From the NCBI GenBank assembly GCA_021792835.1, contig JAJYTY010000009.1:1-40634 (forward strand): a stretch of DNA of 40,634 bases. The letters are read 5' to 3'. Made by a program: the position numbers and the translations under genes. Below the pieces are notes generated by a model. The model worked only from the letters and a program-made list of their open reading frames with translations. It had not been told where the DNA came from and did not search any database. Positions 1 through 23,678 of the stretch are shown piece by piece. This DNA is from Pseudomonadota bacterium (GTDB lineage Bacteria > Pseudomonadota > Gammaproteobacteria > Burkholderiales > Burkholderiaceae_C). Position 1 is the first letter of the stretch; every line of letters begins with the position of its first letter.

Positions 1-568
1 GTGGTCGGTGCTGCGCCGGAAATGGGTGTGGGTCGGCGCGGCCGCCATCTTCGGCGACCTGTTCGCGATCTCCGCGGTCTCGACCTGGGTCGTGCCCATG
101 TACATCGAGGTGCAGAAGATGGCCGTTGCCGACGCCGCCGTGGTCGGCTCGACGATGGGCCTGGCGCAGGTGGTCGTGCTGCTGGCCGGAGGCTGGCTCG
201 CCGACCGCGTCTCGCGCACCGCGATGCTCAAGACCGGCGCGCTGCTTGCGCTGCTGGCCGCGCTGGGCTTCACCTTCGCCGCGACCACCTCGCTGGGCTG
301 GGGCATGATGCTCGCGCTGGCCGCCTTCAGCGGCATCGTGGTGCTCAGCGGCGGGGCGATCTTCAGCCTGGTCAGCCAGGCCTACGGCGAGACCCTGGCG
401 CCGACCGCCATCGGCTTCGCCGAACTGGGGGGCATCGCTTCCAGTTTCGTGGCTCCGGCGCTGATGGGGCTGATCATCGGCGAGACCCACTCCTTCGCGC
501 AGGCCTTCGGCGCCTTTGCCGCGGTCGAGGCGGCGGTGCTGGTGGTGCTGCTGTGGATCGCCAACTGA
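1..568 (+). CDS. MFS transporter, C-terminal part (5' end outside window)
   Basis: The reading frame is open from the first bases, so this is the tail of a longer gene; the stop is TGA at 566-568. About 189 residues are visible and form five or six hydrophobic helices separated by short loops. One loop, LADRVSRTA, is the charged cytoplasmic loop (D-R-x-x-R type) typical of the major facilitator superfamily between paired helices. The protein would be an inner-membrane permease. It lies 31 bases upstream of the next gene on the same strand and probably shares its operon, so uptake of the aromatic substrate or export of an intermediate is a fair guess. Substrate specificity cannot be read from the fragment. 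An apparent GTG start at 8 is internal, because hydrophobic sequence continues upstream to the window edge. Confidence 0.8.
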   Translation, partial: WSVLRRKWVWVGAAAIFGDLFAISAVSTWVVPMYIEVQKMAVADAAVVGSTMGLAQVVVLLAGGWLADRVSRTAMLKTGALLALLAALGFTFAATTSLGWGMMLALAAFSGIVVLSGGAIFSLVSQAYGETLAPTAIGFAELGGIASSFVAPALMGLIIGETHSFAQAFGAFAAVEAAVLVVLLWIAN

Positions 569-599
569 GGCGCCGACGCGTGGCGGGGAGCATCGTTCG

Positions 600-1235
600 A
601 TGAATGCGCCGACGGTTGCGCTGCGCGACACCGCGGTGCTCGCCCTGCACCTGCAGAACGAGGTGCTGCACGCGCAGGGCAGGATCCGCGTGGGCCTCGG
701 CGAGCACGATCCGCGCCGCGACGCGGTGATGTCCAGCGCCCGGCGCCTGCTGGCGTGGGCACGCGTGCATGATCTGCCGATCGTGTTCGTGCGCATCGCG
801 TTTCGCCCCGGCCACGTCGACGTGATCCAGAACTGCAGGGTGTTCCGCGAGGTGGTGCGCCTGGACGCCATGGTCGAGGGATCCTGGGGCGCCGAGTTCG
901 TCGACACGCTGGCGCCGCTGCCAGGTTCGGAGCGTGAGTTCGTGGTGACCCACCAGCGCATCAGCGCATTCCATGGCACCGGGCTGCGCGACCTGCTGAC
1001 CGCGCTGCGCATCCGCCACCTGGTGGTCGCGGGCGTGTCGACCCATTCGGTGGTCGCCACCAGCGTGGCCGCCGCCGCCGACGCCGGCTACGAGGTGACG
1101 GTGATCGGCGACGCCTGCGCCAGTGCCGACCCGGCGATGCACGAGGCCGCGCTGCGCAGCATGCAACTGGTGGCCGAGGTGCGCGGCATGCGCGAACTCG
1201 ACGCCGACACCGCGCAGGGGGACATCGGTGGCTAG
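600..1235 (+). CDS. Isochorismatase-fold (cysteine hydrolase family) protein without the catalytic triad
   Basis: This 211-residue protein has the isochorismatase/nicotinamidase fold throughout: beta-1 LALHLQNEV (residues 14-22), the SAFHGTGL block (122-129), VVAGVSTHS (142-150) and VTVIGDACAS (166-175). In the family beta-1 carries Asp (DxQN), a Lys precedes the SAF block, and a Cys follows GVxTxx. Here these positions are His17, His118 and Val151, so all three catalytic residues are replaced while the scaffold is intact. Some isochorismatases naturally lack the Cys but keep Asp and Lys. The start is ATG 600; the 3' end overlaps the next gene by 8 bases, which implies translational coupling. 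Hydrolysis of an amide or enol ether would be the default family role, but this copy may be a non-catalytic or re-purposed member. Alignment was done by eye. Confidence 0.85.
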   Translation: MNAPTVALRDTAVLALHLQNEVLHAQGRIRVGLGEHDPRRDAVMSSARRLLAWARVHDLPIVFVRIAFRPGHVDVIQNCRVFREVVRLDAMVEGSWGAEFVDTLAPLPGSEREFVVTHQRISAFHGTGLRDLLTALRIRHLVVAGVSTHSVVATSVAAAADAGYEVTVIGDACASADPAMHEAALRSMQLVAEVRGMRELDADTAQGDIGG

Positions 1236-2188: not shown

Positions 2189-3538
2189 ATGAGCATCTCG
2201 GAAACCACGCTCGCCGGACTGGTCCGACCGGACAGCGTGCACAAGGCGGTCTACACGGATCCGGGGATCTTCGAACTGGAGATGCAGCGCATCTACGGGC
2301 GCGCGTGGGTCTACGTCGGGCACGAAAGCCAGGTTCCGCGGGTCGGCGACTACGTGACCGCGCGCATCGGCGACCAGGAGGTGGTGCTGGTGCGCGCGGC
2401 CGACGGGCAGGTCAGGGTCGTCTACAACCGCTGCCCTCACAAAGGCGCGAAGATCGTCCCCGACGGCGCCGGCAACGCCGGCAAGTTCTTCCGCTGTTCC
2501 TACCATGCCTGGACCTTCAAGCTGGACGGCAGCCATCTGGCTGCGCCGTTGAAGATGGGACTGGAGGGAACCTCGTTCTGCGCCGGGGACCCGCAGTTCT
2601 CGATGGCGCCGCTGGCGCGGGTGGAGTCCTACCGCGGTTTCGTGTTCGCCAGCCAGTGCGCATCGGGGCCGGACCTGCGCAGCTTTCTCGGCGGGGCGAT
2701 CAGTTCCCTGGACAATTTCTGCGACCGCTCGCCCGAAGGCGAGGTCGAGGTCGCCGGCGGAACCTTCCGCGTGCTGCAGCGCTCGAACTGGAAGGTGTTC
2801 TACGAGAACCTGCACGACACGATGCATGCTCGGGTGACCCACCAGTCCTCGGTCGAGGCCGCCCGCGCCGAATGCGAGGCGCTGGGCGAAAAGCCCTTCG
2901 AGCTGCTGATCATGGACGGAAACGGCGAACCCTACGAGTTCTGGGAGAAGCTCGAACTGCGCGCCTACCACTTCGGACACGGCTACATGGAGGGGATCTT
3001 CGATCCGGCCGCGGCGACCCGCGACCCGGTGTCGAAGGCCCACTTCGAGGTGCTCGCGGCGGCTCATGGCGAGCAGCGCGCGCGCGAGATCCTGGGCATG
3101 AACCGCCACAACACGGTGATCTACGGCAGCGGATCGCCGCACACGGTGTTCCAGCAGTTCCGTGTGATCCGCCCGCTTGCGGTGGACCGCACGATGGTCG
3201 AGATCCAGTTGTTCAGGCTCAAGGGCGCGCCGGACGCGGTGTTCGATCGGGCGCTGACCTACACGAACCTGATCAACTCGCCGTCGTCGAACGTGATGCC
3301 CGACGACGTGGAGGTCTACGCGCGCTGCCAGCAGGGCAACGCCACGCGCGGCGGCGACTGGGTCAGCATGCACCGCTACCACGGCACGGACCGCGAACTG
3401 CCCGACGGCATGGTCTCGAGCAACGGCACCAGCGAGCTGCCGATGCGCAACCAGTTCGCCGCCTGGAAGCAGTGGATGCTGGACACCGGCGCGACCGCGC
3501 CGCTCGCACCGCAGGAGGCCCGCCGTGCAGCTGCTTGA
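2189..3538 (+). CDS. Rieske aromatic ring-hydroxylating dioxygenase, alpha (large) subunit
   Basis: A 449-residue oxygenase alpha subunit. The Rieske [2Fe-2S] site is Cys82-x-His84 (RCPHKG) and Cys103-x2-His106 (CSYHAW). The mononuclear iron site is in NWKVFYENLHDTMHARVTH: bridging Asp210, ligands His213 and His218, and a C-terminal Asp in MPDDVEVY as likely third ligand. It would insert both atoms of O2 into an aromatic substrate, with electrons from the reductase encoded at 22701-23678. Start ATG 2189 follows AGGAGGAGGA at 2170-2179, the strongest ribosome-binding site in the region. The beta-subunit gene overlaps its end by 14 bases. The closest recognisable families are anthranilate-, benzoate- and indoleacetate-type dioxygenases; the exact substrate is open. 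Confidence 0.95.
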   Translation: MSISETTLAGLVRPDSVHKAVYTDPGIFELEMQRIYGRAWVYVGHESQVPRVGDYVTARIGDQEVVLVRAADGQVRVVYNRCPHKGAKIVPDGAGNAGKFFRCSYHAWTFKLDGSHLAAPLKMGLEGTSFCAGDPQFSMAPLARVESYRGFVFASQCASGPDLRSFLGGAISSLDNFCDRSPEGEVEVAGGTFRVLQRSNWKVFYENLHDTMHARVTHQSSVEAARAECEALGEKPFELLIMDGNGEPYEFWEKLELRAYHFGHGYMEGIFDPAAATRDPVSKAHFEVLAAAHGEQRAREILGMNRHNTVIYGSGSPHTVFQQFRVIRPLAVDRTMVEIQLFRLKGAPDAVFDRALTYTNLINSPSSNVMPDDVEVYARCQQGNATRGGDWVSMHRYHGTDRELPDGMVSSNGTSELPMRNQFAAWKQWMLDTGATAPLAPQEARRAAA

Positions 3539-4061
3539 TCGCCGATTCGACGTCAGCGTGCGTCCGGTGTCCGGCGCACGTCTCGCGCCCGAGGCGCAGC
3601 GCTCGGTCGAACAGTTCCTGTTCCGCGAAGCCGCACTGCTGGACGACCGCGAGCTCGACGCCTGGCTCGAGCTTTGGGACCCCGACGGCCGCTACTGGGT
3701 GCCGCGCTTCGCCGGACAGTCCGAGCCGTTCACGCAGATCTCGCTGTACTGGGAGGACCGGATCCTGCGCGAAACGCGCGTGCGGCGCCTGGCCAACCCG
3801 CGCAACTGGTCCCAGCAGCCGCCGACCCGCTGCTCGCACCTGGTCGGCAACGTCGCCGTGCAGGGGCTGGACAGCGACGGGCACCTGATCGTGCGCTCGG
3901 CGCTGGTCTACACCGAATGGCGCCTGGAACAGCGCCAGTTCGCCGCGACCGTGCACCACAAACTCGCCGCGCGCGACGACGGCACATGGAGCATGCGCCT
4001 CAAGCGCGTGGACCTGGTCAGCTGCGACGCCGTGCTCGGCAGCCTCGAGCTGTTCATCTGA
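3525..4061 (+). CDS. Rieske dioxygenase, beta (small) subunit
   Basis: A 178-residue SnoaL/NTF2-like subunit of ring-hydroxylating dioxygenases. The N-terminal helix EQFLFREAALLDDRELDAW, then WDPDGRYWVPR, and the later SHLVGNVAV and YTEWRLEQRQFAATVHHKL segments match the family order. It has no metal or cofactor site and plays a structural role in the alpha/beta oligomer. The start is GTG 3525, preceded by AGGAGG at 3512-3517 and overlapping the alpha stop, which is typical for this pair and supports matched expression. A perfect 17-bp hairpin begins 10 bases after the stop, so the transcript probably ends here. Confidence 0.94.
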   Translation: MQLLDRRFDVSVRPVSGARLAPEAQRSVEQFLFREAALLDDRELDAWLELWDPDGRYWVPRFAGQSEPFTQISLYWEDRILRETRVRRLANPRNWSQQPPTRCSHLVGNVAVQGLDSDGHLIVRSALVYTEWRLEQRQFAATVHHKLAARDDGTWSMRLKRVDLVSCDAVLGSLELFI

Positions 4062-4071
4062 CACGGGGGCC

Positions 4072-4109
4072 GGCATCCGATCCGGTGCACGCGCACCGGA
4101 TCGGATGCC
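4072..4109 (+). terminator. Perfect 17-bp hairpin after the dioxygenase genes
   Basis: Two exactly complementary 17-base arms (4072-4088 and 4093-4109) flank a 4-base loop. The stem starts 10 bases beyond the beta-subunit stop. There is no T-run after it, so it is either a weak intrinsic terminator or a 3' stabilising structure. Confidence 0.6.
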
Positions 4110-4198
4110 ACAGGGCACCATGGGCGGGACGGCGCGCCCGCGATCGCCCTGCCGGGGAAGGCCGGCCTGCGGAGTCGCCTGGCACGCAACGTGCTTAT

Positions 4199-4257
4199 CG
4201 CGCAAATACCTAATTGCGCGTCCGCGATTCCTGAAGTATTTTAGATATAAAGAAAAA
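4199..4257 (+). promoter_or_regulatory. Candidate operator and promoter upstream of the AraC-type regulator
   Basis: An inverted repeat CGCGCAA-N8-TTGCGCG spans 4199-4220. It runs into an unusually AT-rich stretch to about 4257. TTGCGC at 4214-4219, then 17 bases, then TATTTT at 4237-4242 is a plausible sigma-70 promoter overlapping the repeat. The regulator start codon lies about 120 bases further on. Autoregulation by the AraC-type protein is the simplest reading; binding is not shown. Confidence 0.4.
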
Positions 4258-4362
4258 GCGAGCCTTGGGGCTTGCGGCGGTGAGGCGGGCGTCGCGGGCA
4301 TCGTGCCCGGACAGCGCGCAGCCGGCGCCAGGGTGTGTTCAGGCGAATCGCCGGAGCATGAG

Positions 4363-5409
4363 ATGGAAAGGTATTCACACCCCGATGGCCGGGGGGCCGA
4401 TGTCGTCGACGCATCCAGGATGTACGGGCATCCGGTGTTTCGCTGCGCCGACCTGCGTGAGTCGCAGCCTTACCTGCGCAGTGCGATCTCCGACCACGAG
4501 CTTCGCTGGGGCGACGGCGACGTCGACGCGGCGCTGTTCACGATCGAGACCCCGCGCCTGCGCCTGATGCTGCTGCGCTACGGCCCCGAGGTCGAGGTCG
4601 AGCCGCATCACTTCGACGATTTCTCGCTGGTGCAGGTTCCGCTGCGAGGCGAGACCGAGATCGACTGCGACGGACATCGCGCGCGCCTCGTTCCGGGGCA
4701 ATCGGCACTCGTGTCGCCGCGCCAGCGCCTGCGCGTGCTGTGGAGCCGGGGCTGCGAGCAGCTCATCATCCGCGTGCCCAACGCGCTGCTGCGCCACGCG
4801 GCCATCGGCGCATGGCGCGGGCCTGGCTTCGAGCGCTCCGGAATCCCGGCGCCGATCACCCGCATCGACGGTGCGCCGAGCCGGACCTGGAACAGCCTGC
4901 TGCGCGCGATCATCGACGTCGCCGGGGACCGCGGGACTCCCGACGAGGCCCATCCCGCCTGGCAGGAATACAACGAACTGGGGATCGCCGTGTTCCTGCT
5001 CACGCTGCAGCACGGCGCGACCCAGGAGCCGCTGCCGCGTTGCCCCGCGCTGCCGCTGCGTCCGGCCTGCGCGCGGGCCGACCTGCTGCCGACCGTGGAA
5101 CACTATGCGCGCTCGCGCATCTGCGCGCCGATCGCGCTGGAGGATCTGGCGCGCGCAGCCGGCGTCAGCCCGCGCACGCTGCATCTGTACTGGAGACGCC
5201 ATTACGGGCTGGGCCCGATGGCCTGGCTGCGCAACCTGCGGCTGGACGTGGCACGCCAGCGCCTGAGCGGGCGTGACGACGCGTCGATCACCGATGTCGC
5301 GCTGGAATGCGGATTCGGCCACCTCGGGCGCTTTTCCGCGTACTACCGGCAGCGATTCGGCGAACTGCCGCGCGACACCGCGGCCATGCGCATGCGCAGC
5401 GGCGCCTGA
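4363..5409 (+). CDS. AraC-family transcriptional regulator
   Basis: A 348-residue regulator. The N-terminal half resembles the AraC_binding_2 ligand domain of activators of aromatic catabolism (FDDFSLVQVPLRGETEI; PGQSALVSPRQRLRVLW). The C-terminal 95 residues carry two helix-turn-helix motifs: LEDLARAAGVSPRTLHLYWR, and ITDVALECGFGHLGRFSAYY followed by RQRFGELP, the standard AraC signature. Start ATG 4363 is chosen because the sequence upstream is AT-rich non-coding DNA carrying a promoter-like element. It lies downstream of the dioxygenase pair on the same strand and converges with the iorB gene (22-bp gap). It probably activates the dioxygenase operon, the iorAB operon, or both in response to an aromatic acid. 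Confidence 0.9.
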   Translation: MERYSHPDGRGADVVDASRMYGHPVFRCADLRESQPYLRSAISDHELRWGDGDVDAALFTIETPRLRLMLLRYGPEVEVEPHHFDDFSLVQVPLRGETEIDCDGHRARLVPGQSALVSPRQRLRVLWSRGCEQLIIRVPNALLRHAAIGAWRGPGFERSGIPAPITRIDGAPSRTWNSLLRAIIDVAGDRGTPDEAHPAWQEYNELGIAVFLLTLQHGATQEPLPRCPALPLRPACARADLLPTVEHYARSRICAPIALEDLARAAGVSPRTLHLYWRRHYGLGPMAWLRNLRLDVARQRLSGRDDASITDVALECGFGHLGRFSAYYRQRFGELPRDTAAMRMRSGA

Positions 5410-5431: not shown

Positions 5432-7009
5432 TCAACCCAGGGCCCGCAAGGCGTCGTCGAAGCGCGAGCCGCCGGCCTCGGACAACGCGATCCGGCGCAG
5501 CTCGGCCACGCGCTGCGCCGCCTGCGCACTGCCATGCAGCCCGCGGGCCGCCGCGAGCAGGCGGTCGAAGCGCCCGCTGCCGCGCGCGTGAGTGTCCGAG
5601 TATCCCTTGACCAGGCGCCGGCAGCGCAGCATCTCCACCGCCAGCGCATAGTCGTCGCGCGCCACGCGCTGCACGCTGTCCAGCCACTGTTGCAGGTGCT
5701 CGCACTCCTGCGCGTGGCGAAGGCTCGCGCGGCGCCAGCGCCGCATTCCGGCAAGCAGGCGCAGCTGCAGGTAACCCCACAACTGCGAGCTGCGCAGGCG
5801 GCGTCCCTTGCGCAGCAACGCGCCGGCCACGCGCTGCGCCGCAGGCGACTCCAGCACGCGACCGCCCAGGCGCCGCGGCAGCAGCCCGCAAAGCTCCTCC
5901 AGCCGCGGATGCAGGAAATCCTCGACGCCCACCGGCTCGTGCGCGCCGACCCCCACCTCGCCACGAATGCGCGCGAAGCGTTCCTCGCGCGACTTCAGTT
6001 CGGCGACGCGGATGACGTCGTCGTAGGCCATCGCCACCGCGATCCACTGCGCGGCCTCGCGGGTCAGCGCATGGTCCGCCTGGCGCGCCGCATCCCCGGT
6101 GTCGAGCGCGGCGATGTGGGCGACCCGCTGCAGGTACTGCCGACCGTAGTCCAGGTCCTGGAAGTCGACGACGCGCTGCAGGCCCTCACCAAGCATGTCC
6201 CAGGCCGGAGCCGGAAAGTCCCGGCGGATATGCTCGAGCAGCGGCTGCAGCAGCGGGCTGGCCGCGCGTTCGGGTAGCGCGCGCGGCGCGGTGACCATGC
6301 GATCCGGCCCGAGCACCCGCGGCGGCGCGGCCGCGGCGGCCGCGTCGCGCCCGGCGCGCAGCGCGCGCAGGCTGGCTTCGACGCCGACCCCGCTGTCGCG
6401 CACCACGATCTCGAAGTCCGCGGCCGCGAACGGCAGCGCGCCACTGCCGGCGAGCGCCCCGAACAGGCTCGCCGAGATCACGCTGGAGGCCGCCACCGCC
6501 AGCGCCTGCATGTCGGCCGCGACGAGGCGCCGCGCGCTGGCGCGCACCTGCTCGAGCACGCGTTCGCCGTCGGCCACGCCGTTGCCGGCCACGGTCTTCT
6601 CGTCCACGGAGAAGGCGCGGTGCGTGCTCGTGATCACCGTGGTCCGCGCCGGCGTCACGAAACCGCGCAGCGCGGCGCGGCCTGCCTCCATCAGTTCGGC
6701 CGCGATCAGCACGTCGACATCACCCGGCACGGGCATCTGCGCCAGCACCGGCGTGCGCCCCTGCGGATCGGGCGGCACCAGTTCGAGGTAGTAGATCGTC
6801 GCGCCGGTGCGCTGCGCGACGCCGGCCACCGACGTCGCCTGCGCGATCCAGCCGCGCGCCTCGGCCAGCGCGACGATCCAGTCAACCAGCACACCGCCGC
6901 CCTGGCCGCCCAGGGCCATCACGGCGATGTTGATCGGCGCGCCGCGCGGCGACTCCGTGCCTGGCGCGCTCGCCTGTTCGCTCGCCTGTCCGCTCGCTTG
7001 CGCACTCAT
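5432..7009 (-). CDS. iorB: Indolepyruvate:ferredoxin oxidoreductase-type protein, IorB (gamma domain plus C-terminal extension)
   Basis: A 525-residue protein. After a short Ala/Ser/Gln-rich leader, residues from about 30 to 220 form the pyruvate:ferredoxin oxidoreductase gamma domain, starting INIAVMALGGQGGGVLVDW and continuing through SVAGVAQRTGATIYYLELV. The remaining 300 residues are helical and Arg-rich and match the extension (DUF6537 type) found in long IorB proteins. Start ATG 7009 overlaps the iorA stop as ATGA, so the two are translationally coupled. With IorA it would oxidatively decarboxylate an aryl-2-oxoacid such as indolepyruvate or phenylpyruvate to the aryl-acetyl-CoA, passing electrons to ferredoxin. 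The gene ends 22 bp from the AraC gene. Confidence 0.88.
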   Translation of the reverse strand: MSAQASGQASEQASAPGTESPRGAPINIAVMALGGQGGGVLVDWIVALAEARGWIAQATSVAGVAQRTGATIYYLELVPPDPQGRTPVLAQMPVPGDVDVLIAAELMEAGRAALRGFVTPARTTVITSTHRAFSVDEKTVAGNGVADGERVLEQVRASARRLVAADMQALAVAASSVISASLFGALAGSGALPFAAADFEIVVRDSGVGVEASLRALRAGRDAAAAAAPPRVLGPDRMVTAPRALPERAASPLLQPLLEHIRRDFPAPAWDMLGEGLQRVVDFQDLDYGRQYLQRVAHIAALDTGDAARQADHALTREAAQWIAVAMAYDDVIRVAELKSREERFARIRGEVGVGAHEPVGVEDFLHPRLEELCGLLPRRLGGRVLESPAAQRVAGALLRKGRRLRSSQLWGYLQLRLLAGMRRWRRASLRHAQECEHLQQWLDSVQRVARDDYALAVEMLRCRRLVKGYSDTHARGSGRFDRLLAAARGLHGSAQAAQRVAELRRIALSEAGGSRFDDALRALG

Positions 7010-9234
7010 GATTTCGGCGCCTCCGCGGGGTACAGCTCGAGGCGCATGCGCCGCGCCCTCGCACGGCGCTGCAGCCAGCCCACGAGCGCCGCCTGCGCGC
7101 GCCGCCAGCGCGCCTCCCAGGCTCCCGGGTTGTGGACCTTGTAGGCCCGGTAGAAGGACGGGCACAGGATCGCCGCGTCGGCCACCTCGCCGCAATGGCC
7201 GCAGGCCACGCACTGTTCGTCGACATGTGCCACCGGATCGGGCTTGAGCGCATCGCCGCTGGGTGCCAGCGTCAGGCTCGGGCATCCGGACACCCGCATG
7301 CATGCGTGGTCGCCGCTGCACACCGCGGCATCGACACCGAATCGCTCGTGCAGCGTGCGCCGGCCCTCGCGGATCGCCGCCGCCTTGCGCGGACGCTCGC
7401 GACGCTGGCGGTTCAGCATGCACTCGCTTTGCGCGATGACCACCTTCGGGCCCTTGTAGTCGGTGCTCAGCGCCTCGCGCAGGACGTCGCGCATGCGTGC
7501 GACGTCGTAGGTGCGCTGCACCGTGCGCACCCATTGCACGCCGACGCCGCGCACCGCCTGCTCGATGGCGTGCATGGTGCTGCGATGCGGGTTCTGCGCC
7601 CGCGACGACAGGATGTCCTGGCCTCCGGTGGCTGCCGAATAGTTGTTGTCGACGATCACGAACACGTTGTCGTGCTGGTTGAACACCGCGTTGCCGATGC
7701 CCGAGGCCAGCCCGTTGTGCCAGAAACCGCCATCGCCCATGAACGCCACCGCGCGCTTGCCCGCCGCCAGCAGCTTGCCGGCATTGAACGCCGAGGCGCT
7801 GCTGGCGCCGAGCCCATAACCCATCGTCGTCGCGCCGATCGAGAACGGCGGCATGATCGAGAACAGGTGACAGCCGATGTCGGCCGATACGTGGTGTTCC
7901 CCGAGCTCGCGCTCGACCAGCTTGTACGAGGAGAAGATCGGCCGTTCCGGACAGCCCACGCAAAGTCCCGGGGGGCGCTGCGGCAGCAGGCTCCAGTCGC
8001 TTGCCGCAGGCGCTTGCGCTTGCGCTGGCGCAGGCGGCTGCGCCGAGGCGGGCTCGGCGTCGGCGCGCCGCGGCATGCCCAGCGCCACCGCGGGCGCGAA
8101 GGCTGCCGGGTGGTGGCGCTCGACGAACTGGCGCAGCCCGGCCTCGATCACCGCGACCGTGTAGTCGCCGCTCGGCGGCAGCACGTCCTTGCCGTGCACC
8201 GCGACGTCCACGCCCCGGCGACGCACGATGGCGTGCAGGTTCTGCTCCAGATAGTCGGGCTGGCCTTCCTCGACCATGCACACGGCACGCTTGCCACGGC
8301 AAAAGCGCAGCACTTCCTCGTCGACCAGCGGATACGCGACATTGAGCACGTACAGCGGGACCCGCGTGCCGCCCCACAGGTCGGCCAGCCCCAGGCGCTG
8401 CAACGCGCGCACCGTGTTGTTGTACAGCCCGCCCAGCACGATCACGCCGATGTGCTCGATGTCGCCGTCGAAGAATTCGTTGAGGCCGCGCTGTTCGATG
8501 AAGCGCACCGCGGCGGGCCAGCGCCTGGTGACCTTCTCCTTCTCGTGCAGGAACGACGCCGGCGGCAGCACGATGCGGTCGAGGTCGCGGCGCGGCTGCT
8601 CCAGCGCCTGCTTGAGCGAGAAGCCCGGGCGGCGGTTCTCCGACGTGACGAAGCTGCCGTGCAGGTGGCACGAGCGGATGCGCAACTGCAGGAACACCGG
8701 CGTGTTGCTGGCCTCGGACAACTCGAAACCGTCGTGCACCGCCTTCACGATCGAAGGAAGGTTCGGTCGCGGGTCGAGCAGCCACATCTGCGACTTCATC
8801 GCGAAGCCGTGGGTGCGCTCCTGCATGATCGAGGACCCTTCGCCGTAGTCCTCGCCGACGATGACCAGCGCACCTCCGGTGACTCCCCCGGAGGCCAGGT
8901 TCGCCAGCGCGTCGCTGGCCACGTTGGTGCCGACCGTGGACTTCCAGGTCACCGCGCCGCGCACCGGATAGTGCACCGACGCCGACAGCGCGGCGGCCGC
9001 ACCGGCCTCGCTGGCCGCCGGCTCGAAGTACACGCCCATTTCCTCGAGCAGCGGCTGCGCGTCGGCCAGCACGTCCATCAGGTGCGAGATCGGCGAACCC
9101 TGGTAGCCGGTGACGTAGCCGACACCGGCCTCCAGCAGCGCCTTCGTGACGGCCAGGATGCCCTCGCCGCGGAAGGTGCTGCCGGCCGGTACGCGCAGTT
9201 GCTCGACCTCGCGAGCGAACGACCTTTCAGCCAT
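7006..9234 (-). CDS. iorA: Indolepyruvate:ferredoxin oxidoreductase-type protein, IorA (TPP and Fe-S subunit)
   Basis: A 742-residue subunit. The N-terminal pyrimidine-binding domain includes GYQGSPISHLMD (43-54), an EAAS-like EPAASEAG (71-78) and GEDYGEGSS. LCVGCPER (424-431) precedes the TPP domain, whose GDG-to-NN motif runs from MGDGGFWHNG near 499 to VDNNYSAATGGQ near 528-539. The C-terminus carries two [4Fe-4S] sites: CSGDHACMRVSGCPS and CVACGHCGEVADAAILCP. The reaction is CoA- and ferredoxin-dependent oxidative decarboxylation of aryl-pyruvates. Such enzymes are best known from anaerobes and archaea, but long homologues also occur in aerobic betaproteobacterial aromatic clusters. It is followed by iorB with ATGA overlap and preceded by the outer-membrane protein gene with only 16 bp between them. 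Confidence 0.92.
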   Translation of the reverse strand: MAERSFAREVEQLRVPAGSTFRGEGILAVTKALLEAGVGYVTGYQGSPISHLMDVLADAQPLLEEMGVYFEPAASEAGAAAALSASVHYPVRGAVTWKSTVGTNVASDALANLASGGVTGGALVIVGEDYGEGSSIMQERTHGFAMKSQMWLLDPRPNLPSIVKAVHDGFELSEASNTPVFLQLRIRSCHLHGSFVTSENRRPGFSLKQALEQPRRDLDRIVLPPASFLHEKEKVTRRWPAAVRFIEQRGLNEFFDGDIEHIGVIVLGGLYNNTVRALQRLGLADLWGGTRVPLYVLNVAYPLVDEEVLRFCRGKRAVCMVEEGQPDYLEQNLHAIVRRRGVDVAVHGKDVLPPSGDYTVAVIEAGLRQFVERHHPAAFAPAVALGMPRRADAEPASAQPPAPAQAQAPAASDWSLLPQRPPGLCVGCPERPIFSSYKLVERELGEHHVSADIGCHLFSIMPPFSIGATTMGYGLGASSASAFNAGKLLAAGKRAVAFMGDGGFWHNGLASGIGNAVFNQHDNVFVIVDNNYSAATGGQDILSSRAQNPHRSTMHAIEQAVRGVGVQWVRTVQRTYDVARMRDVLREALSTDYKGPKVVIAQSECMLNRQRRERPRKAAAIREGRRTLHERFGVDAAVCSGDHACMRVSGCPSLTLAPSGDALKPDPVAHVDEQCVACGHCGEVADAAILCPSFYRAYKVHNPGAWEARWRRAQAALVGWLQRRARARRMRLELYPAEAPKS

Positions 9235-15422: not shown

Positions 15423-17726
15423 ATGCGCATCGCATGCCTGGGCGGCGGACCCGCCGGACTGTATTTCTCGATCCTGATGAAAAAGGCCGACCCGTCGCAT
15501 CGGATCACGGTGATCGACCGCAACCCCGCCGACAACACCTTCGGCTGGGGCATCGTGTTCTCCGACCAGACGATGGACGGGTTCCGCGACGCGGACCCGC
15601 AGGTGGTGCGGCAGATCGAGGAGCACTTCCACCACTGGGACGACATCGACATCCACTTCAAGGACCGCAGGATCACGTCCAGCGGCCACGGCTTCTGCGG
15701 GATCGCGCGCATCAAGCTGCTGCAGATCCTGCAGCAGCGTGCGCAGGAACTCGGAGTGGAGATGCGCTGGGAGCAGGAATTCTCCGACCCCGACGTCCAC
15801 GCCCGCGACCACGACCTGGTGGTCGGCTCCGACGGCGTGTTCTCCGCGACCCGCGCGCGCCACGAGGCGCACTTCAATCCGCGCATCGACGTCGGCCGCT
15901 GCCGTTACATCTGGCTGGGCACCCGCAAGCGCCTGGACGCCTTCACCTTCGCGTTCAGGCAGACCGAGTGGGGCTGGTTCAACCTGCATGCCTACCGCTT
16001 CAACGAAGAGTGGTCGACCTTCATCGTCGAGACGCCGGAGCAGACCTGGCTGAACGCCGGACTCGACAAACTCGGGAAGGAGCAGTCGCTGGCGTTTTGC
16101 GAGCGCCTGTTCGCCGACCAGCTCGACGGCCACGAACTGGTGTCGAACGCGCGCCACCTGCGCGGGTCGGCGATCTGGCAGAAGTTCAACCGCGTGCTGT
16201 GCGAGAGGTGGTTCAAGGACAACATCGTGCTGATCGGCGACGCCGCGCACACCGCGCACTTCTCGATCGGCTCGGGTACCAAGCTGGCGATGGAGGACGC
16301 GATCGCGCTGGTGAAGGTGCTGGGCAGCTCCCAGGGCACGGTTTCCGAGCGCCTGGCGCGCTACCAGGCCGAGCGCGAGGTCGAGGCCCTGAAGCTGCAG
16401 AGCGCGGCGCGCAACCGCATGACCTGGTTCGAGAACATCGGCACCTACGCGCGCATGGAGCCCGAGCAGTTCGCGTTCTCCCTGCTGACCGGCAGCCAGC
16501 GCGTGGGTCACGCGAACCAGAAGCTGCGCGACGCGGCCTACGTGGAAGGCTACGACCGCTGGTTCCAGCGCCGCGCGGGACTTGCCGACGACGCCTCGCA
16601 GCCGCCGGCTCCGCCGATGTTCACGCCGCTGCAACTGCGTTCGATGACCCTGCACAACCGCGTCGTGGTCTCGCCGATGTGCACCTACTCGGCGGTCGAC
16701 GGCATGCCCGGCGACTTCCACTTCCAGCACTACGCGGCGCGCGCGCTGGGCGGTGCCGGGCTGGTGCTGACCGAGATGACCTGCGTGGCTCCCGACGCGC
16801 GCATCACCCCGGGTTGCACCGGGATCTGGAGCGACGCGCAGGCGCAGGCGTGGAAGCGCCTGGTCGACTTCGTGCACGCGGCCACCGGCGCGAGGATCGG
16901 ACTGCAGATCGGGCATGCCGGCAGGAAGGGCTCGACGCGCCTTTCGTGGGACGGCGCGGACCAGCCGCTGCCGCAGGGCAACTGGCCGCTGATCGCGCCG
17001 TCGGCGCTGCCGCTGATCGAGGGCGTTTCGCAGGTGCCGCGCGCGATGACCGCCGCCGACATGCAGCGCGTGCTCGAGGAATTCGTCGCCGCGACGCGGC
17101 GCGCCGACGCCGCCGGCTTCGACATGGTCGAGTTCCACGCCGCCCACGGCTACCTGATGTCCTCGTTCATCTCACCGCTGACCAACCTGCGCGACGACGA
17201 CTACGGAGGCAGCCTGGGGAACCGGTGCCGCTTCCCGCTCGAGGTGTTCGCGGCAATGCGCGCGGCCTGGCCCGAGCGCCGGCCGATGTCGGTGCGCATC
17301 TCGGCGCACGACTGGGTTCCCGGCGGCACCACGCCGGACGATGCGGTCCACATCGCCCGCCTGTTCAGGCAGGCCGGCGCCGACATCATCCACGTCTCGT
17401 CGGGCCAGGTCAGCAAGGAGGAGAAGCCGGTCTACGGGCGCATGTTCCAGACGCCTTTTTCCGACAAGATCCGCAACGAGGCGGGCGTCCCGACCATCGC
17501 CGTCGGCAACATCTTCGAGAGCGACCACGTGAACACGATCATCGCCGCCGGGCGCGCGGACCTGTGCGCGCTGGCGCGCCCGCACCTGTCGGATCCGGCG
17601 TGGACCCTGCACGCCGCGGCCGAGCAGCGCTACTCCGGAGTCGCGTGGCCCCGCCCTTACGTGGGCGGCAGGACGCAACTCGAGCGCAACCTGGAACGCG
17701 CCGCGCAGATGGCGCTCAACGCCTGA
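15423..17726 (+). CDS. Fused flavin monooxygenase / Old Yellow Enzyme: 2-aminobenzoyl-CoA monooxygenase-reductase (salicylyl-CoA 5-hydroxylase family)
   Basis: A 767-residue two-domain flavoprotein. Residues 1-390 are a class A flavin monooxygenase: [17 protein letters not shown] at 5-21, [15 protein letters not shown], and [20 protein letters not shown] near 270. Residues 399-767 are an Old Yellow Enzyme barrel: [20 protein letters not shown], then [10 protein letters not shown] and [18 protein letters not shown]. This fusion is the hallmark of 2-aminobenzoyl-CoA monooxygenase/reductase, which hydroxylates at C5 and then reduces the ring, and of salicylyl-CoA 5-hydroxylase/oxidoreductase. 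The neighbouring CoA ligase and beta-oxidation genes fit a dearomatising CoA-thioester pathway. Start ATG 15423 has GGAGG at 15411-15415. The next gene begins 7 bp after its stop. Confidence 0.92.
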
Positions 17727-17733: not shown

Positions 17734-18546
17734 ATGCCGACGATGCCCGCGAATCCGACATCCAATCAGACCGAGGGCCTTGCCCTGCAGGGCCGCCACG
17801 CGGTGGTCACCGGAGCCAGCGGCGGCATCGGCGCGGCGATCTGCGCCGAGCTGGCCCGCCACGGCGCCGTGCTGAGCCTGCTCGGCACCGATGCCGGGCG
17901 GCTGCAGCGCGCCCGCGACGCGCTGCCCGGAAACGGCCACGCGATCGCCTGCGTCGACGTGCGCGAGCACGCCGCGGTGGCCGCCTGCCTGGCCGACGCG
18001 GCCGCCGCGCGCGGCACCATCGACATCCTGGTGAACAATGCCGGAATCGCGCGCAGCGCCCCGCTGACGCGCACCGATCCGCAGCTCTGGAACGACATGC
18101 TGGCCGTCAACCTCGGCGGAACCTACCACTGCACCCACGCGGTGCTGGAAGGCATGCTGCGCGCGCGCTGGGGGCGCATCGTCAACGTCGCCAGCACCGC
18201 GGGACTGACCGGCTACGCCTACGTCAGCGCCTATTGCGCGGCCAAGCACGGTGTCGTCGGCTTCACCCGCGCGCTGGCCCTGGAAGTGGCGGCCAAGGGC
18301 ATCACGGTGAATGCCGTGTGCCCCGGCTACACGGACACGCCGCTGCTCGATGAGGCCCTGGACAACATCGTCGCGCGCACCGGGCGCGACCGCGACGCGG
18401 CGCGCGCCACCCTTGCGGCGGGCAATCCGCAGGGCCGGCTGGTGACCCCGGGGCAGGTCGCCAACGCGGTGGCCTGGCTGTGCCTGCCAGGCTCCGACGC
18501 GGTGCACGGCCAGGCCATCGCGGTGGCCGGCGGCGAGGTCATGTAG
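17734..18546 (+). CDS. SDR family dehydrogenase (3-hydroxyacyl-CoA dehydrogenase-like)
   Basis: A 270-residue classical SDR with TGASGGIG near residue 27, NNAGIARSAP, the catalytic Ser in NVASTAGLTG, YCAAKHG as YxxxK, and the substrate-loop VCPGYTDTPLL. It is of the type used as 3-hydroxyacyl-CoA or acetoacetyl-CoA-like dehydrogenases. Placed directly after the fused monooxygenase/reductase and before a crotonase, it most likely oxidises the hydroxyl (or reduces the keto group) on the alicyclic CoA intermediate. Start ATG 17734, or ATG 17743. It is distinct in sequence from the SDR at 1228-2043. Confidence 0.9.
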   Translation: MPTMPANPTSNQTEGLALQGRHAVVTGASGGIGAAICAELARHGAVLSLLGTDAGRLQRARDALPGNGHAIACVDVREHAAVAACLADAAAARGTIDILVNNAGIARSAPLTRTDPQLWNDMLAVNLGGTYHCTHAVLEGMLRARWGRIVNVASTAGLTGYAYVSAYCAAKHGVVGFTRALALEVAAKGITVNAVCPGYTDTPLLDEALDNIVARTGRDRDAARATLAAGNPQGRLVTPGQVANAVAWLCLPGSDAVHGQAIAVAGGEVM

Positions 18547-18579
18547 CCGGACCACCGACACGCATTGAGGAGACCCCCG

Positions 18580-19425
18580 ATGAGCGACAACCCGATGAGC
18601 GCGCACAAACGGCCTATGAAGCCGTACCGCGCGAGGCATTTCGACTGGACGTGCAGCGACGACGGGCGCGTCGGCACGATCACGCTGAACCGCCCGGACA
18701 AGAAGAACCCGCTGACCTTCGAGTCCTACGCCGAGCTGCGCGACCTGTTCCGCGATCTCGTGTACGCGCAGGATGTGCGCAGCATCGTGATCACCGGCGC
18801 CGGGGGCAATTTCTGCTCCGGCGGCGACGTGTTCGAGATCATCGAGCCGCTGACGCGCATGCGCGCGCCCGAGCTGCTCGCCTTCACGCGCATGACCGGC
18901 GACCTGGTCAAGGCGATGCGCCGCGCCCCGCAACCGGTGATCGCCGCGATCGACGGCGTGTGCGCCGGCGCCGGCGCGATGATCGCGCTGGCGGCCGACC
19001 TGCGCCTTGCGACCCCGGCGGCGAAGACCGCGTTCCTGTTCACCCGCGTCGGGTTGGCCGGCGCCGACATGGGCGCCTGCGGCCTGCTGCCGCGGGTCAT
19101 CGGCGCCGGCCGCGCCAACGAGCTGTTGATGACCGGCCGCTCGATGCGCGCCGACGAAGGTCTCGCCTGGGGCTTCTTCAACGCGCTGCACGACGCCGGC
19201 TCGCTGCTCGACAAGGCGCACGAACTGGCGCGCGAGCTCGCCGACGGCCCCTGGTTCGCGCATACGATGACCAAGACCATGGTCAACCAGGAATGGTCGA
19301 TGGGGCTCGACGAGATGATCGAGTCCGAAGCGCAGGCACAGGCGCTGTGCATGATGACCGGGGACTTCCGCCGCGCCTTCGAGGCCTTCGCCGCGCGCCG
19401 CAAGCCGGCGTTCGAGGGCGACTGA
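18580..19425 (+). CDS. Enoyl-CoA hydratase/isomerase (crotonase) family protein with atypical active site
   Basis: A 281-residue crotonase. The oxyanion-hole region is [11 protein letters not shown] (77-87) and the second loop [20 protein letters not shown] (125-144). By eye against classical enoyl-CoA hydratase, the two catalytic Glu positions fall on Met134 and about Thr155, so neither acid is kept; Asp163 in GADMGACG is a nearby acidic candidate. That suggests a non-hydratase crotonase, such as a ring-opening hydrolase or an isomerase acting on the alicyclic CoA ester. Start ATG 18580 follows GAGG at 18567-18570. It lies between the SDR and the acyl-CoA dehydrogenases in one tight operon. 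Confidence 0.88.
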
Positions 19426-19438: not shown

Positions 19439-20596
19439 ATGGACCGAAGCCATCTCGAACTTCCGTTCTTCGACGACACGCACCGCCGCCTTGCGCGCGG
19501 ACTCGCCGACTGGACCACGCGGGCCGCGCCGATCGACCACCACGACGCCGACGCCGCCTGCCGCGCGCTGGTGCGCGAGCTGGGCGACGCCGGCTGGCTG
19601 CGCTGGTGCGTGCCGGCCGCCTTCGGCGGCGCGTTGCCCGAACTCGACTCGCGCAGCCTATGCGTGGCGCGCGAGACCCTGGCCTACCACGACGGCCTGG
19701 CCGACTTCGCGTTCGCGATGCAGGGCCTGGGAAGCGGCGCGATCACGCTGGCCGCGAGCCCCGAGCTGCAGCGACGGGTGCTGCCGAAGGTGGCCAGCGG
19801 TGCATGGATCGCGGCCTTCGCGCTGACCGAACCGCAGGCCGGCTCGGATGTAGCGGCGATGCAGTGCACGGCCACGCGCGACGGCGACTCCTGGCTGCTG
19901 CACGGCGAGAAGACCTGGATCTCCAACGGGGGCATCGCCGATGTCTACTGCGTGTTCGCGCGCAGCGGCGAAGCGCCGGGAACGCGTGGCATCTCGGGCT
20001 TCGTGGTGACGCCGGACATGCCGGGATTCGAGGTCGCCGAGCGCCTGCACGTGATGGCCCCGCATCCGCTGGCGCGCCTGCGCTTCGACGGCCTGCGGGT
20101 GCCGGCATCGAACCTGCTGGGCGCACCGGGCGAAGGCTTCAAGCTGGCGATGCGCACGCTGGACATCTTCCGCGCATCGGTCGCGGCCGCCGCGCTCGGC
20201 TTCGCGCGCCGCGCGCTCGACGAGGCGCTGCGCCACAGCCGTGAACGGCGCATGTTCGGGCAGACGCTGGCCGACCTGCAGCTCACGCAGGCCCGCCTCG
20301 GCGAGATGGCCGCCGACATCGACGCGGCGGCGCTGCTGACCGCGCGCGCCGCGTGGCGCCGCGACGTGCAGCGCCTGCCCACCACGCGCGAGGCGGCGAT
20401 GGCGAAAATGACGGCGACCGAGAATGCGCAGCGGGTCATCGACTCGGCGTTGCAGCTGCACGGAGGCCGCGGCGTGCAGTGCGGCCAGGTGGTCGAACGC
20501 CTGTACCGCGACATCCGCGCGCTGCGCATCTACGAAGGCGCCACCGAAGTGCAGAAACTCATCATCGCGCGCGAACTGCTCAAGTCCGCGTCCTGA
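19439..20596 (+). CDS. Acyl-CoA dehydrogenase
   Basis: A 385-residue FAD acyl-CoA dehydrogenase. [16 protein letters not shown] and [12 protein letters not shown] are the two family signature regions that line the flavin; [19 protein letters not shown] and LQLHGGRGV follow. The catalytic base is Glu366 in [10 protein letters not shown]. It would introduce a double bond alpha-beta to a CoA thioester and pass electrons to ETF. The gene starts 14 bp after the crotonase stop and precedes glutaryl-CoA dehydrogenase. Substrate is probably the alicyclic CoA ester or the opened C7 dicarboxylyl-CoA, by analogy with other aromatic-CoA pathways. Confidence 0.92.
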
Positions 20597-20615: not shown

Positions 20616-21797
<1,182 letters not shown>

Positions 21798-21808
21798 CGG
21801 GGCCGGCG

Positions 21809-22258
21809 ATGCAGGCCACGCACCCGACGTCCCCCGCCGAGGGCGAACCCTTCGTCGCGCAGCGCCTGATCCGCTTCGGACATTGCGACCCCGCGGGGAT
21901 CGTGTTCTTCCCACGCTATTTCGAGCTGCTCAACGGCGTCGTCGAGGACTGGTGGGGCCACATCGGACTGCCGTGGACCGAGCTGATCACCGAGCGCCGC
22001 GTCGGCATGCCGACCGCGCAGCTCGACACCGCATTCGTCGCGCCGTCGCGCCTGGGCGAGACCCTGCGCTTCGAGTTGCGCGTGGCGCGCCTGGGCTCGA
22101 GCTCGCTGCACCTGGACCACCGCGTGGTCGGCGAACGCGGCGACGAGCGCGTGCGCTTCGCGCAATGCCTCGTCGCCACCTCGCTGGACACGCATCGCCC
22201 GATCCCCTGGCCCGCGGACCTGCGCGAGGCCATCCACCGCTTCAAGGAGACCGCATGA
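21809..22258 (+). CDS. 4-Hydroxybenzoyl-CoA thioesterase-family hotdog thioesterase
   Basis: A 149-residue hotdog-fold protein. RFGHCDPAGIVFFPRYFEL (22-40) carries the catalytic Asp27 of the 4-hydroxybenzoyl-CoA thioesterase family of the Pseudomonas type. It would hydrolyse aromatic or alicyclic CoA thioesters. In a CoA-dependent aromatic pathway such enzymes are thought to release CoA from dead-end thioesters rather than carry main flux. Its last codons overlap the next start as ATGA, and it begins 11 bp after gcdH. Start ATG 21809. Confidence 0.9.
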   Translation: MQATHPTSPAEGEPFVAQRLIRFGHCDPAGIVFFPRYFELLNGVVEDWWGHIGLPWTELITERRVGMPTAQLDTAFVAPSRLGETLRFELRVARLGSSSLHLDHRVVGERGDERVRFAQCLVATSLDTHRPIPWPADLREAIHRFKETA

Positions 22259-22653
22259 GCATCAAGACCGTTCAGCCCGAGGGCTGGATCCAGCCCAGGG
22301 GCTACGCCAACGGCGTCGAGGCGCGCGGCCGCCAGGTGTATGTCGGGGGCCAGATCGGCTGGAACACGCAGGGCTGCTTCGAGACCGACGACCTCGTCGA
22401 GCAGACCCGCCAGGCGCTGCGCAATTGCGTCGATGTGGTGCGCGCCGCCGGCGGCGACGCGCACCACATCGTGCGCATGACCTGGTACCTGCGCGACAAG
22501 CGCGAGTACCAGGCCCGGCTGAAGGAGATCGGCGCGGCCTACCGCGACATCGTCGGGCGCCACTACCCGGCGATGAGCGCGATCCAGGTCAGCGACCTGA
22601 TCGAGGACCGGGCCAAGGTCGAGATCGAGGTCACCGCTGTGCTTCCCGACTGA
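22255..22653 (+). CDS. RidA/YjgF-family protein lacking the RidA arginine
   Basis: A 132-residue YjgF-fold protein with VYVGGQIGWNTQG (28-40), EQTRQALRNCVDVVRAAGGD and the ending KVEIEVTAVL. In enamine/imine deaminase RidA the active-site Arg lies in a PAR-S segment; here the same segment is YPAMSAI, placing Met107 at that position. The Glu-rich strand is kept. Rid-superfamily members without the Arg generally lack 2-aminoacrylate deaminase activity. In this cluster, where dearomatisation of an aminobenzoyl-CoA would give an enamine, a deaminase would make sense, so the substitution is notable. It is the last gene of the operon and converges with the reductase gene (47-bp gap). Confidence 0.88.
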   Translation: MSIKTVQPEGWIQPRGYANGVEARGRQVYVGGQIGWNTQGCFETDDLVEQTRQALRNCVDVVRAAGGDAHHIVRMTWYLRDKREYQARLKEIGAAYRDIVGRHYPAMSAIQVSDLIEDRAKVEIEVTAVLPD

Positions 22654-22700
22654 CGCTGCGCGCGCAGACGCGATGTCCGGAAGCCGCGCCATGCGCCGGC

Positions 22701-23678
22701 TCACAGGTCCAGCACGAGGCGCTGGCCCAGGGCACGCGATATGCAGATCTGGATCACCTTGCCGCAGGCCCTCTCGGCGGCGCCGAGCACGTGGTCGCGG
22801 TGGTCGATCTCGCCTTCGAGCACCGGGACCGCGCAGACGCCGCAGTCGCCGCGGCGGCAATCGAACAGCGGATCGTGGCCGTGTTCCAGCAGGCAATCGA
22901 GTATCGTCTGGTCGGCGGCGACCGTCAGCGTCCGGCCGGACTGCGCCAGCACGACGTCGAAGGCACGGTCCTGCGCCTGGGGGACGGCCGCCGTGAAGCT
23001 CTCGAAGCGCAGCCGGTCGGCCGGCCATCCCTGCGCCTCGGCCGCCGCCCGCGCCGCGTCGAGCATCGCTGCGGGACCGCAGAGGTACACCTGTTCGTGC
23101 GGCGCGCAGGCGCCGAGCAGCCTGCCCAGGTCGAGCGCCGCCCCGGCCTGCTCGTCGACATGCAGGTACAGCGAACCGCCCAGCAGGCGTTGCAGTTCAG
23201 GCACGAAGGCCATCAGCGCCCGGCTGCGCCCCGCATACACCATGCGCACCGGGATCCCGGCGCCGCGGCAGCGCGCGGCCATCGCAGTCAGCGGCGTCAC
23301 GCCGATGCCCCCGGCGACGAGCAGCACGCCCTGCCCGGCTGCGGGCTGCAGTTCGAAATCATTGCGCGGCGCCTCGATATGCAGCAACTCGTCGTGCTGC
23401 AGCGCGTGCATGAAACGCGATCCCCCGCGCCCGGGCTGCTCCAGGCGCACCGCGATGCGGTAGCTCGACTGCGCCTGCGTGGTGTCGACGTCGGGGCCCA
23501 GCTCGACCAGCGAATAGGCGCGCCAGTCGCTTGCGCCGTCGGCCAGACGCACCTGCACGCGAACATGGGATCCGGCCGTGTATCCGGGCAGGGTCGCTCC
23601 CTGCAACGGCTGCAGCGTGAAGCAGCGCACCAGCTCGTTGCAGACCTCGATCCCGGCGACCCGCACATCGATCATCAC
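22701..23678 (-). CDS. Phthalate dioxygenase reductase-type flavin/[2Fe-2S] reductase
   Basis: A 325-residue oxygenase reductase. The flavin-binding RAYSLVE is near residue 53, the NAD domain has VAGGIGVTPLTAM and YLCGPAAML, and the C-terminal plant-type ferredoxin has Cys274, Cys279, Cys282 and Cys312 (CRRGDCGVC ... QICISRA). This domain order (FMN, NAD, ferredoxin) is that of phthalate dioxygenase reductase and VanB. It would carry electrons from NADH to the Rieske dioxygenase encoded about 19 kb away at 2189-4061, since no other oxygenase reductase is in the window. Start ATG 23678 (a second ATG follows at 23675) has GGAGG just upstream. Confidence 0.93.
   Translation of the reverse strand: MMIDVRVAGIEVCNELVRCFTLQPLQGATLPGYTAGSHVRVQVRLADGASDWRAYSLVELGPDVDTTQAQSSYRIAVRLEQPGRGGSRFMHALQHDELLHIEAPRNDFELQPAAGQGVLLVAGGIGVTPLTAMAARCRGAGIPVRMVYAGRSRALMAFVPELQRLLGGSLYLHVDEQAGAALDLGRLLGACAPHEQVYLCGPAAMLDAARAAAEAQGWPADRLRFESFTAAVPQAQDRAFDVVLAQSGRTLTVAADQTILDCLLEHGHDPLFDCRRGDCGVCAVPVLEGEIDHRDHVLGAAERACGKVIQICISRALGQRLVLDL

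Follow-up and report, generated by a model that had tools for sequence, protein, structure and literature searches.

The 40,634-nucleotide stretch examined here (the window, which is the entire contig G000:C302 from a relative of Thiomonas) carries, at positions 2–23,678, four units of aromatic-catabolism genes recognized by Pfam and NCBIfam profile searches. We favor, with modest confidence, the reading that this island encodes a catabolic pathway for indole, or for a close indole without the acetate side chain. A Rieske oxygenase (2189–4061) with an IadC-type reductase would convert the substrate to indole-2,3-dihydrodiol (step 1), which a short-chain dehydrogenase/reductase (SDR) of the PRK08265 type would convert to dioxindole (step 2) and a CrtO-like flavoenzyme to isatin (step 3). 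Isatin hydrolase (IH) would give isatinate (2-aminophenylglyoxylate; step 4), from which IorAB would form 2-aminobenzoyl-CoA by oxidative decarboxylation with CoA (step 5), to be taken toward glutaryl-CoA by the fused monooxygenase/reductase, an SDR, a crotonase, and dehydrogenases (step 6); free anthranilate would enter at 2-aminobenzoyl-CoA through the CoA ligase. The enzyme families, the active-site residues of IH, and the conserved gene order can be read directly from the sequence; the substrate, steps 1–3, and the new step 5 are what we infer.

Unit 1 (+) runs from a cut major facilitator superfamily (MFS) gene through isochorismatase, SDR, and Rieske alpha and beta to AraC; unit 2 (−) is ordered CrtO–IH–MetA channel–IorA–IorB; unit 3 (+) is ordered CoA ligase–MarR–fused monooxygenase–SDR–crotonase–two acyl-CoA dehydrogenases–thioesterase–RidA; and unit 4 (−) is a solitary reductase gene. 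The contig boundary truncates the island on its left side, as the window is one complete contig of a 323-contig assembly (95% complete). The genes are as follows.

2–568, +, MFS transporter, 3′ part, cut at contig start (PF07690; 87% to Thiomonas)
597–1235, +, isochorismatase-like hydrolase (PF00857)
1228–2043, +, SDR, proposed indole-2,3-dihydrodiol dehydrogenase, start uncertain (NF006121/PRK08265, 329 bits, cut-off 294)
2189–3538, +, Rieske oxygenase alpha, sister clade of IadD, N251/H322 pocket (PDB best 9o71/7yls)
3525–4061, +, Rieske oxygenase beta (PF00866)
4105–5409, +, AraC regulator, start codon uncertain (PF14525, PF12833)
5432–7009, −, IorB, POR gamma + DUF6537 (profile matches; PRK08312)
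7006–9234, −, IorA, thiamine diphosphate (ThDP) 2-oxoacid oxidoreductase, proposed isatinate to 2-aminobenzoyl-CoA (profiles, GDG motif, clade)
9251–10243, −, MetA/SphA-type outer-membrane channel, iifE/ipoC superfamily (PF13557)
10318–11100, −, isatin hydrolase by sequence (PDB 5nmp; HTGTHFDAPAH)
11171–12772, −, CrtO/CrtI-like FAD oxidoreductase, proposed dioxindole to isatin (profile matches, model, context)
13031–14674, +, aryl-CoA ligase, probably acting on 2-aminobenzoate, start uncertain (355 of 375 bits, benzoate-CoA ligase family)
14761–15300, +, MarR regulator (PF12802)
15423–17726, +, fused 2-aminobenzoyl-CoA (or salicylyl-CoA) monooxygenase/reductase (NF006101)
17734–18546, +, SDR, lower pathway (profile match)
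18565–19425, +, enoyl-CoA hydratase family (crotonase; NF006107)
19439–20596, +, acyl-CoA dehydrogenase (profile match)
20616–21797, +, acyl-CoA dehydrogenase, glutaryl-CoA dehydrogenase likely (GlutCoADH_Des)
21809–22258, +, 4HBT thioesterase (PF13279)
22255–22653, +, RidA family protein (PF01042)
22701–23678, −, Rieske reductase, IadC type (PDB best 7ylr)

All genes named by the initial annotation of positions 1–23,678 were recovered by the profiles, while the MarR gene between the ligase and the fused monooxygenase had been overlooked; its 14895–15195 stretch is 88–91% identical to Thiomonas. The isochorismatase-like hydrolase, the SDR at 1228–2043, the AraC regulator, and the partial MFS gene were likewise added to the initial list. 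We also considered IorA and IorB as a single frameshifted fusion and rejected this, as they are two overlapping genes.

Isatin hydrolase and its IorAB neighbors

The hydrolase was initially assigned to the cyclase family, which includes isatin hydrolase, and on the evidence of its sequence it is an isatin hydrolase. The best PDB match is 5nmp (E 7.3e-143 across 253 residues), which we take to be the enzyme of Ralstonia solanacearum. Structures of isatin hydrolases from Ralstonia and Labrenzia have been described, and the seven Mn-site and catalytic residues given for LaIHA in the accessible part of that work (His69, His73, Asp75, His79, Asp193, His207, and Gln219; PMC6117287) are all kept in the window protein, as H70, H74, D76, H80, D196, H210, and Q222, respectively. 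IH is present in 16 of the 150 genomes of the window's family, the window's own counted, and the island looks accessory, since G280, a genome of the same genus, has no IH match. In Thiomonas sp. FB-6, the stretch corresponding to 2–22653 (MFS to RidA) is collinear at 80–84% nucleotide identity, the only departure being a CrtO–ligase interval that is ∼0.8 kb longer, and because FB-6 keeps the same order at this identity, the gene grouping is not a product of chance.

An IH-alignment scan of genome contigs returned 582 relatives, the best 80 of which were taken as loci and scored with a panel of reference proteins; this set is biased to close relatives of the query and includes near relatives of each other. 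IorAB was matched in 59 loci, iad genes in 43, AbmA in 12, CrtO in 9, and styrene/indole monooxygenase (SMO) in 5, all five of which also have CrtO. IorAB thus lies in the same locus as IH (up to 20 kb) in 59/80 cases, and in 49/59 among loci of at least 20 kb; the two are co-oriented in 58/59 loci and, where both occur in non-iad loci, lie within 1 kb in 18 of 28. CrtO was found in 8/37 non-iad loci versus 1/43 iad loci (p 0.01), and the sole CrtO-positive iad locus, L165, has SMO too. The co-occurrence of an upper and a lower block, proposed initially from the window, was borne out in Thiomonas FB-6, Azospirillum thermophilum, Tsukamurella, and Caballeronia, the last two carrying IH, IorAB, and AbmA, and 10 of the 12 AbmA-bearing IH loci also have IorAB.

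Within the window's family, flanks were read for the 7 most alike of the other 15 IH genomes. SDR, SMO, flavin reductase, and CrtO stand together with IH in four of these (G204, G391, G256, and G372). In G256 and G372, SDR–SMO–flavin reductase is followed by CrtO–IH–SphA–IorA–IorB, matching the window order, G391 has IH before CrtO, and G204 has IorAB on a separate contig, in a row with a thioesterase and AbmA; the other three genomes (G390, G360, and G353) have IH–IorAB without SMO. SphA matches in these family stretches are weak (26–28% identity), and none of the stretches has more than 1 kb at >93% identity in common with the 80 loci.

The phylogeny of IorA follows the distribution of IH. 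All 59 IH-linked rows fall inside one 65-row clade, and the other 20 rows, none of them with IH, are set apart from it at SH-aLRT 100 (fragmentary matches in G204, G059, G126, and at the C3 place of G049 were left out of the tree). When only order-level rows are considered, which were found regardless of IH, IH is nearby in 5/9 versus 0/20 (p 0.001), one of the five, G237, being judged from two contig ends. Also at the order level, IorA is present in 8/10 IH genomes versus 25/240 others (p 1.5e-6, kinship uncorrected), although in one of these eight, G180, IorA belongs to the other clade and sits on a separate contig. The GDG motif and ten cysteines are invariant in the IorA rows counted (63–65 of the window's own clade and 20 of the other), while D529, G538, P596, and N608 are among the residues specific to the clade.

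IorAB was initially read as an arylpyruvate enzyme, which we do not uphold: IorA scores 267 bits against TIGR03336 (IOR_alpha), below the cut-off of 651, and its clade tracks isatin hydrolase. The reading frame holding IorB scores 659 bits against a PRK08312 cut-off of 348. Judged by sequence, IorAB probably acts on isatinate rather than on an arylpyruvate, and the "indolepyruvate oxidoreductase" label probably masks a different, bridging role here. As an aryl-glyoxylate, isatinate belongs to the 2-oxo acids, and for this reason IorAB would make from it 2-aminobenzoyl-CoA, which the fused enzyme is expected to use. This would be the chemistry of phenylglyoxylate:acceptor oxidoreductase, which converts an aryl-glyoxylate and CoA to an aroyl-CoA and CO2 and has a subunit make-up unlike that of IorAB. 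No PDB relative of IorA was found by sequence at E 1e-5, with either the single protein or a six-sequence profile. The AlphaFold model (mean pLDDT 66.7) identifies the protein only as a ThDP enzyme: the 50 Foldseek matches listed are all ThDP enzymes, with TM ≤0.50 and rmsd near 20.

In the accessible portion of a study of Bradyrhizobium on indoleacetate (IAA, an auxin), iorA is induced 30.7-fold and iorB 7.6-fold (PMC3788728), consistent with a function in an isatin pathway. Pseudomonas LY1 mutants in iadA, iadB, or iadE are described, in the available text, as showing no growth on IAA (PMC8383072); that work uses its own naming scheme (iadHABICDEFG), and an attempt to match these genes to iorAB did not succeed.

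The 2-aminobenzoyl-CoA lower block

The fused FAD monooxygenase/old yellow enzyme-type reductase scores 1271 bits against NF006101 (cut-off 1078), which agrees with its initial assignment to the salicylyl-CoA/2-aminobenzoyl-CoA type, a class within which sequence cannot decide between the two substrates; together with the aryl-CoA ligase, it forms the hallmark pair of the 2-aminobenzoyl-CoA pathway. The name gcdH given earlier to 20616–21797 is likely correct, in that a glutaryl-CoA dehydrogenase is the likely product, although its score against GlutCoADH_Des is 215 bits, below the cut-off of 470.

IorB, thioesterase (TE), and AbmA are consecutive panel matches in 6 loci, and the Caballeronia order is IorA–IorB–TE–AbmA–cupin–FAH–nitrilase–racemase–MarR–IH, a 34-kb stretch in which no aryl-CoA ligase was found by annotation or panel match. 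None of five IH loci with AbmA and cupin/FAH/nitrilase has an anthranilate-type ligase (at least 45% identity) in the locus; one of them, L161, has an IadF-type ligase, which is also the sole ligase of the iad + abm operon of Azospirillum thermophilum, where IorAB and AbmA are both present.

Another lower module, centered on AbmA (TE, cupin, FAH, and nitrilase, in whole or in part), was observed near IH or IorAB in L131, L109, L152, L159, L161, L163, and L191. Gentisate 1,2-dioxygenase is the closest match of the cupin in L131 (330 of 442 bits), which makes this cupin a candidate for a "gentisate" branch.

To the right of the island in the window, positions 24012–39939 hold two large GAF/PAS/GGDEF proteins, OprB-like and general porins, HbpS, FUR, CheR, and HDOD, with GGDEF/EAL domains also among the genes; those right of 23.7 kb do not look part of the island.

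The Rieske oxygenase, the CrtO-like enzyme, and the substrate

The window Rieske alpha subunit is closest in the PDB to the IadD entries 9o71 (E 1e-114) and 7yls (E 9e-114), the next entry reaching only 8e-42. Nine residues line the IAA pocket of IadD according to the accessible part of its structural description (PMC10374108), and seven of these are kept in the window protein, with Phe251 changed to Asn and Lys322 to His. In a tree of 54 rows, the F251/K322 pair defines one clade of 24 rows, all of them F/K and including IadD of Variovorax, Achromobacter, and Aromatoleum. The N/H pair defines a clade of seven (the window, Thiomonas, B. arboris, pCAR1, G138, Variovorax 2u118, and Agrobacterium), and F/Q a third clade of 15 rows. 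By sequence, the window enzyme is therefore not IadD itself and appears as a sister to this auxin oxygenase. F/Q-clade oxygenases were also seen ∼6–11 kb from AbmA-type genes (G103:C86, G052:C1, and G180:C4).

An isochorismatase-like gene and an SDR adjoin the N/H Rieske genes in all seven loci. An anthranilate-level lower route lies near four of them (abm in the window, Thiomonas, and G138; antA in pCAR1), and none was found in the stretches examined from B. arboris, Variovorax, or Agrobacterium. No hint of the substrate came from five proteins encoded in the Rieske flanks of B. arboris and of Variovorax 2u118, and the Rieske block is not mentioned in the accessible part of the pCAR1 transcriptome paper.

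The best PDB match of the reductase at 22701–23678 is 7ylr (E 1e-113), listed as "Ferredoxin" and taken by us to be Variovorax IadC. The reductase is 72% identical in amino acids and 78% in nucleotides to that of an iad-type locus located, in Thiomonas FB-6, 8 kb beyond the island on the same contig. That locus holds the reductase, two Rieske alpha/beta pairs, an IadF-like ligase (36%), IadH (65%), a second IH, and an SDR, with no IorAB match (IadG was not searched). Either the window lineage lost iad, keeping only the reductase, or Thiomonas gained iad; the island Rieske pair has no adjoining reductase gene in the window genome or in Thiomonas, which would explain why the reductase was retained.

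The SDR of the window and that of an Azospirillum SMO locus both score above the NF006121 cut-off, and among the channels PF13557 was confirmed only for those of the window and the Azospirillum indole locus; ipoC of P. savastanoi, an ortholog of iifE, is described in the available text as a channel of the same superfamily (PMC12538310). The model of the CrtO-like enzyme (pLDDT 82.2) matches carotenoid desaturases first and then nicotine and amine oxidases, and does not settle the substrate. CrtO is present at 10/10 of the observed loci with IH and SMO, one of which was fetched via its CrtO. Among plasmid matches, 12 of the 20 listed (27 in total, many near copies) lie ≤5 kb from an IorA match, and in a 13th plasmid record, from Azospirillum, IH adjoins CrtO. 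CrtO relatives were also observed near cupin–Ldh–RidA–FAH genes in Mesorhizobium and Agrobacterium (L259 and L128). No SMO-type indole oxygenase was found in the window genome, G280, Thiomonas, or G138, with G204 as a positive control (other types were not searched), and that the Rieske pair would replace SMO is the part of our reasoning we hold least firmly.

Alternatives and relation to known pathways

Several observations weigh against the favored indole pathway. The Rieske operon is separate from the CrtO–IH–IorAB operon and is found elsewhere without those genes, and Rieske and CrtO stand in one row only in Agrobacterium (Rieske–SDR–CrtO), where IH has no match. CrtO relatives occur in other contexts in S. 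indolifex, Mesorhizobium, and G595; at the class level CrtO is found in 2/369 genomes, the window's own and G595, and in the latter it sits on a 6.3-kb contig without another panel match, giving no support for a CrtO–IH link. IorAB has no match in 21/80 IH loci, 10 of them at least 20 kb long, and no IH match lies near four order-level members of the IH-linked IorA clade (G039, G070, G240, and G210). The island ligase offers a route from free anthranilate that is independent of the IorAB step, Tsukamurella likewise has IorAB plus a ligase, and the AbmA locus L146 has a ligase and no IorAB match. Finally, Variovorax iadC–K2 alone yields anthranilate without the rest of the locus, so that the IorAB step is not essential for decarboxylation.

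The strongest competitor, which we regard as possible though rather unlikely, is that the island holds two independent pathways, with the Rieske oxygenase, isochorismatase, and SDR acting on another anthranilate precursor and CrtO–IH–IorAB on isatin from elsewhere. In pCAR1 (where it lies beside antA), B. arboris, Variovorax 2u118, and G138, the Rieske module has neither IH nor IorAB in its vicinity, which would fit this, as would the isochorismatase-like hydrolase, which has no place in the indole scheme. The negative search for an SMO-type oxygenase in the genome (the only type searched), the window SDR, which passes the same subfamily cut-off as the indole-locus SDR, and the Rieske–SDR–CrtO row of Agrobacterium argue against it.

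Degradation of IAA by an iad-like route, fed by IorAB acting on indolepyruvate, is improbable in our view. In its favor, the island has IorAB, IH, an IadC-type reductase, and a Rieske oxygenase whose nearest match is IadD, and Thiomonas FB-6 has its iad-type locus on the same contig. Neither IadF nor IadH was matched in the window, however, and the genome (95% complete) yielded no IadH, which was found in three controls (IadG was not searched); all 24 IadD-clade rows carry F251/K322, against N/H in the window clade; and the published nine-gene IAA region is iadC–K2, with iadAB outside. We therefore rejected IAA as the substrate, on the negative IadH search of this nearly complete genome and the two changed pocket residues. 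The initially proposed route stands largely, as to an indolic substrate passing via the isatin/anthranilate level into the 2-aminobenzoyl-CoA block, but not as to indoleacetate. Equally hard to credit is a non-oxidative decarboxylation of isatinate by IorAB to 2-aminobenzaldehyde and on to anthranilate for activation by the ligase: the C7H7NO observed in the iad pathway would fit 2-aminobenzaldehyde (our own assignment), some of the Foldseek matches listed are benzoylformate decarboxylases, and the island has a ligase, but the POR subunit and conserved cysteines point to an oxidoreductase, the Caballeronia cluster is ligase-free, and no aldehyde dehydrogenase is among the island genes.

Returning to an indole pathway through isatinate, its components can be set against known systems. 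The aerobic 2-aminobenzoyl-CoA pathway of Azoarcus/Aromatoleum (abm genes) shares the ligase, fused monooxygenase/reductase, SDR, crotonase, and dehydrogenases; in the island, this lower block is joined to an isatin-forming upper block. The iad loci of Variovorax, Achromobacter, and Bradyrhizobium (IAA to isatin to anthranilate) share IorAB, as IadAB, with an IH-type hydrolase, Rieske alpha/beta, and IadC-type reductase; the island differs in lacking IadF/IadH, in its altered Rieske pocket, and in having the CrtO-like enzyme and the 2-aminobenzoyl-CoA block. The iif/ind/WHOP indole loci of Acinetobacter O153, Cupriavidus SHE, and P. savastanoi share SDR, MetA-type channel, and AraC regulator, and in the window's family, SMO-type relatives also have the CrtO–IH–channel–IorAB row; the island has a Rieske oxygenase instead of a flavin indole oxygenase, and it has IH and IorAB, whereas isatin has been suggested as a dead end in an iif strain. 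The likeness to the IifB-type SDR and MetA-type channel is at the level of the family only (NF006121 and PF13557). The pCAR1 Rieske–isochorismatase–SDR block beside the ant genes has a Rieske alpha 77% identical and the same neighboring genes, but no IH, CrtO, or IorAB in the stretch examined, where anthranilate dioxygenase is a neighbor.

The initial annotation knew of no described cluster with this exact gene set, and we found none in print, although its upper half closely resembles iad and iif loci in the literature, as far as these are accessible (PMC9613470, PMC12633357, PMC6221969, and PMC12538310). The component kinds (isatin hydrolase, iad, iif, and the 2-aminobenzoyl-CoA pathway) are already known; what is new is how the genes are combined, along with the CrtO-like step and the proposed IorAB bridge. 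In the open-access literature, we found no description of the latter two and no paper naming both "isatinate" and "2-aminobenzoyl-CoA".

According to the available part of an indole review, no isatin gene is known for the iif cluster, isatin has been suggested as a dead end, and both the place of isatin on the indole pathway and the gene for the gentisate route are open (PMC6221969). We would argue that isatin is no dead end in a set of bacteria reaching from Betaproteobacteria to Soonwooa (Bacteroidota, L191). Loci that combine an indole oxygenase, a CrtO-like enzyme, IH, IorAB, and aminobenzoyl-CoA monooxygenase make the place of isatin in the indole pathway testable, and the gentisate dioxygenase-like cupin beside AbmA suggests an answer on the gentisate-route gene. 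In a broader form, for which we see about an even chance, IorAB of isatin loci would be an isatinate:acceptor oxidoreductase through which indole (or auxin, in iad bacteria) is mineralized without free anthranilate, and which would form, with a CrtO-type dioxindole dehydrogenase, a widespread and undescribed isatin branch. If true, this would explain what iadAB (iorAB) does in the iad loci of auxin degraders, a role unassigned in the accessible parts of the publications, and would correct the widely used annotation of these genes as an indolepyruvate oxidoreductase.

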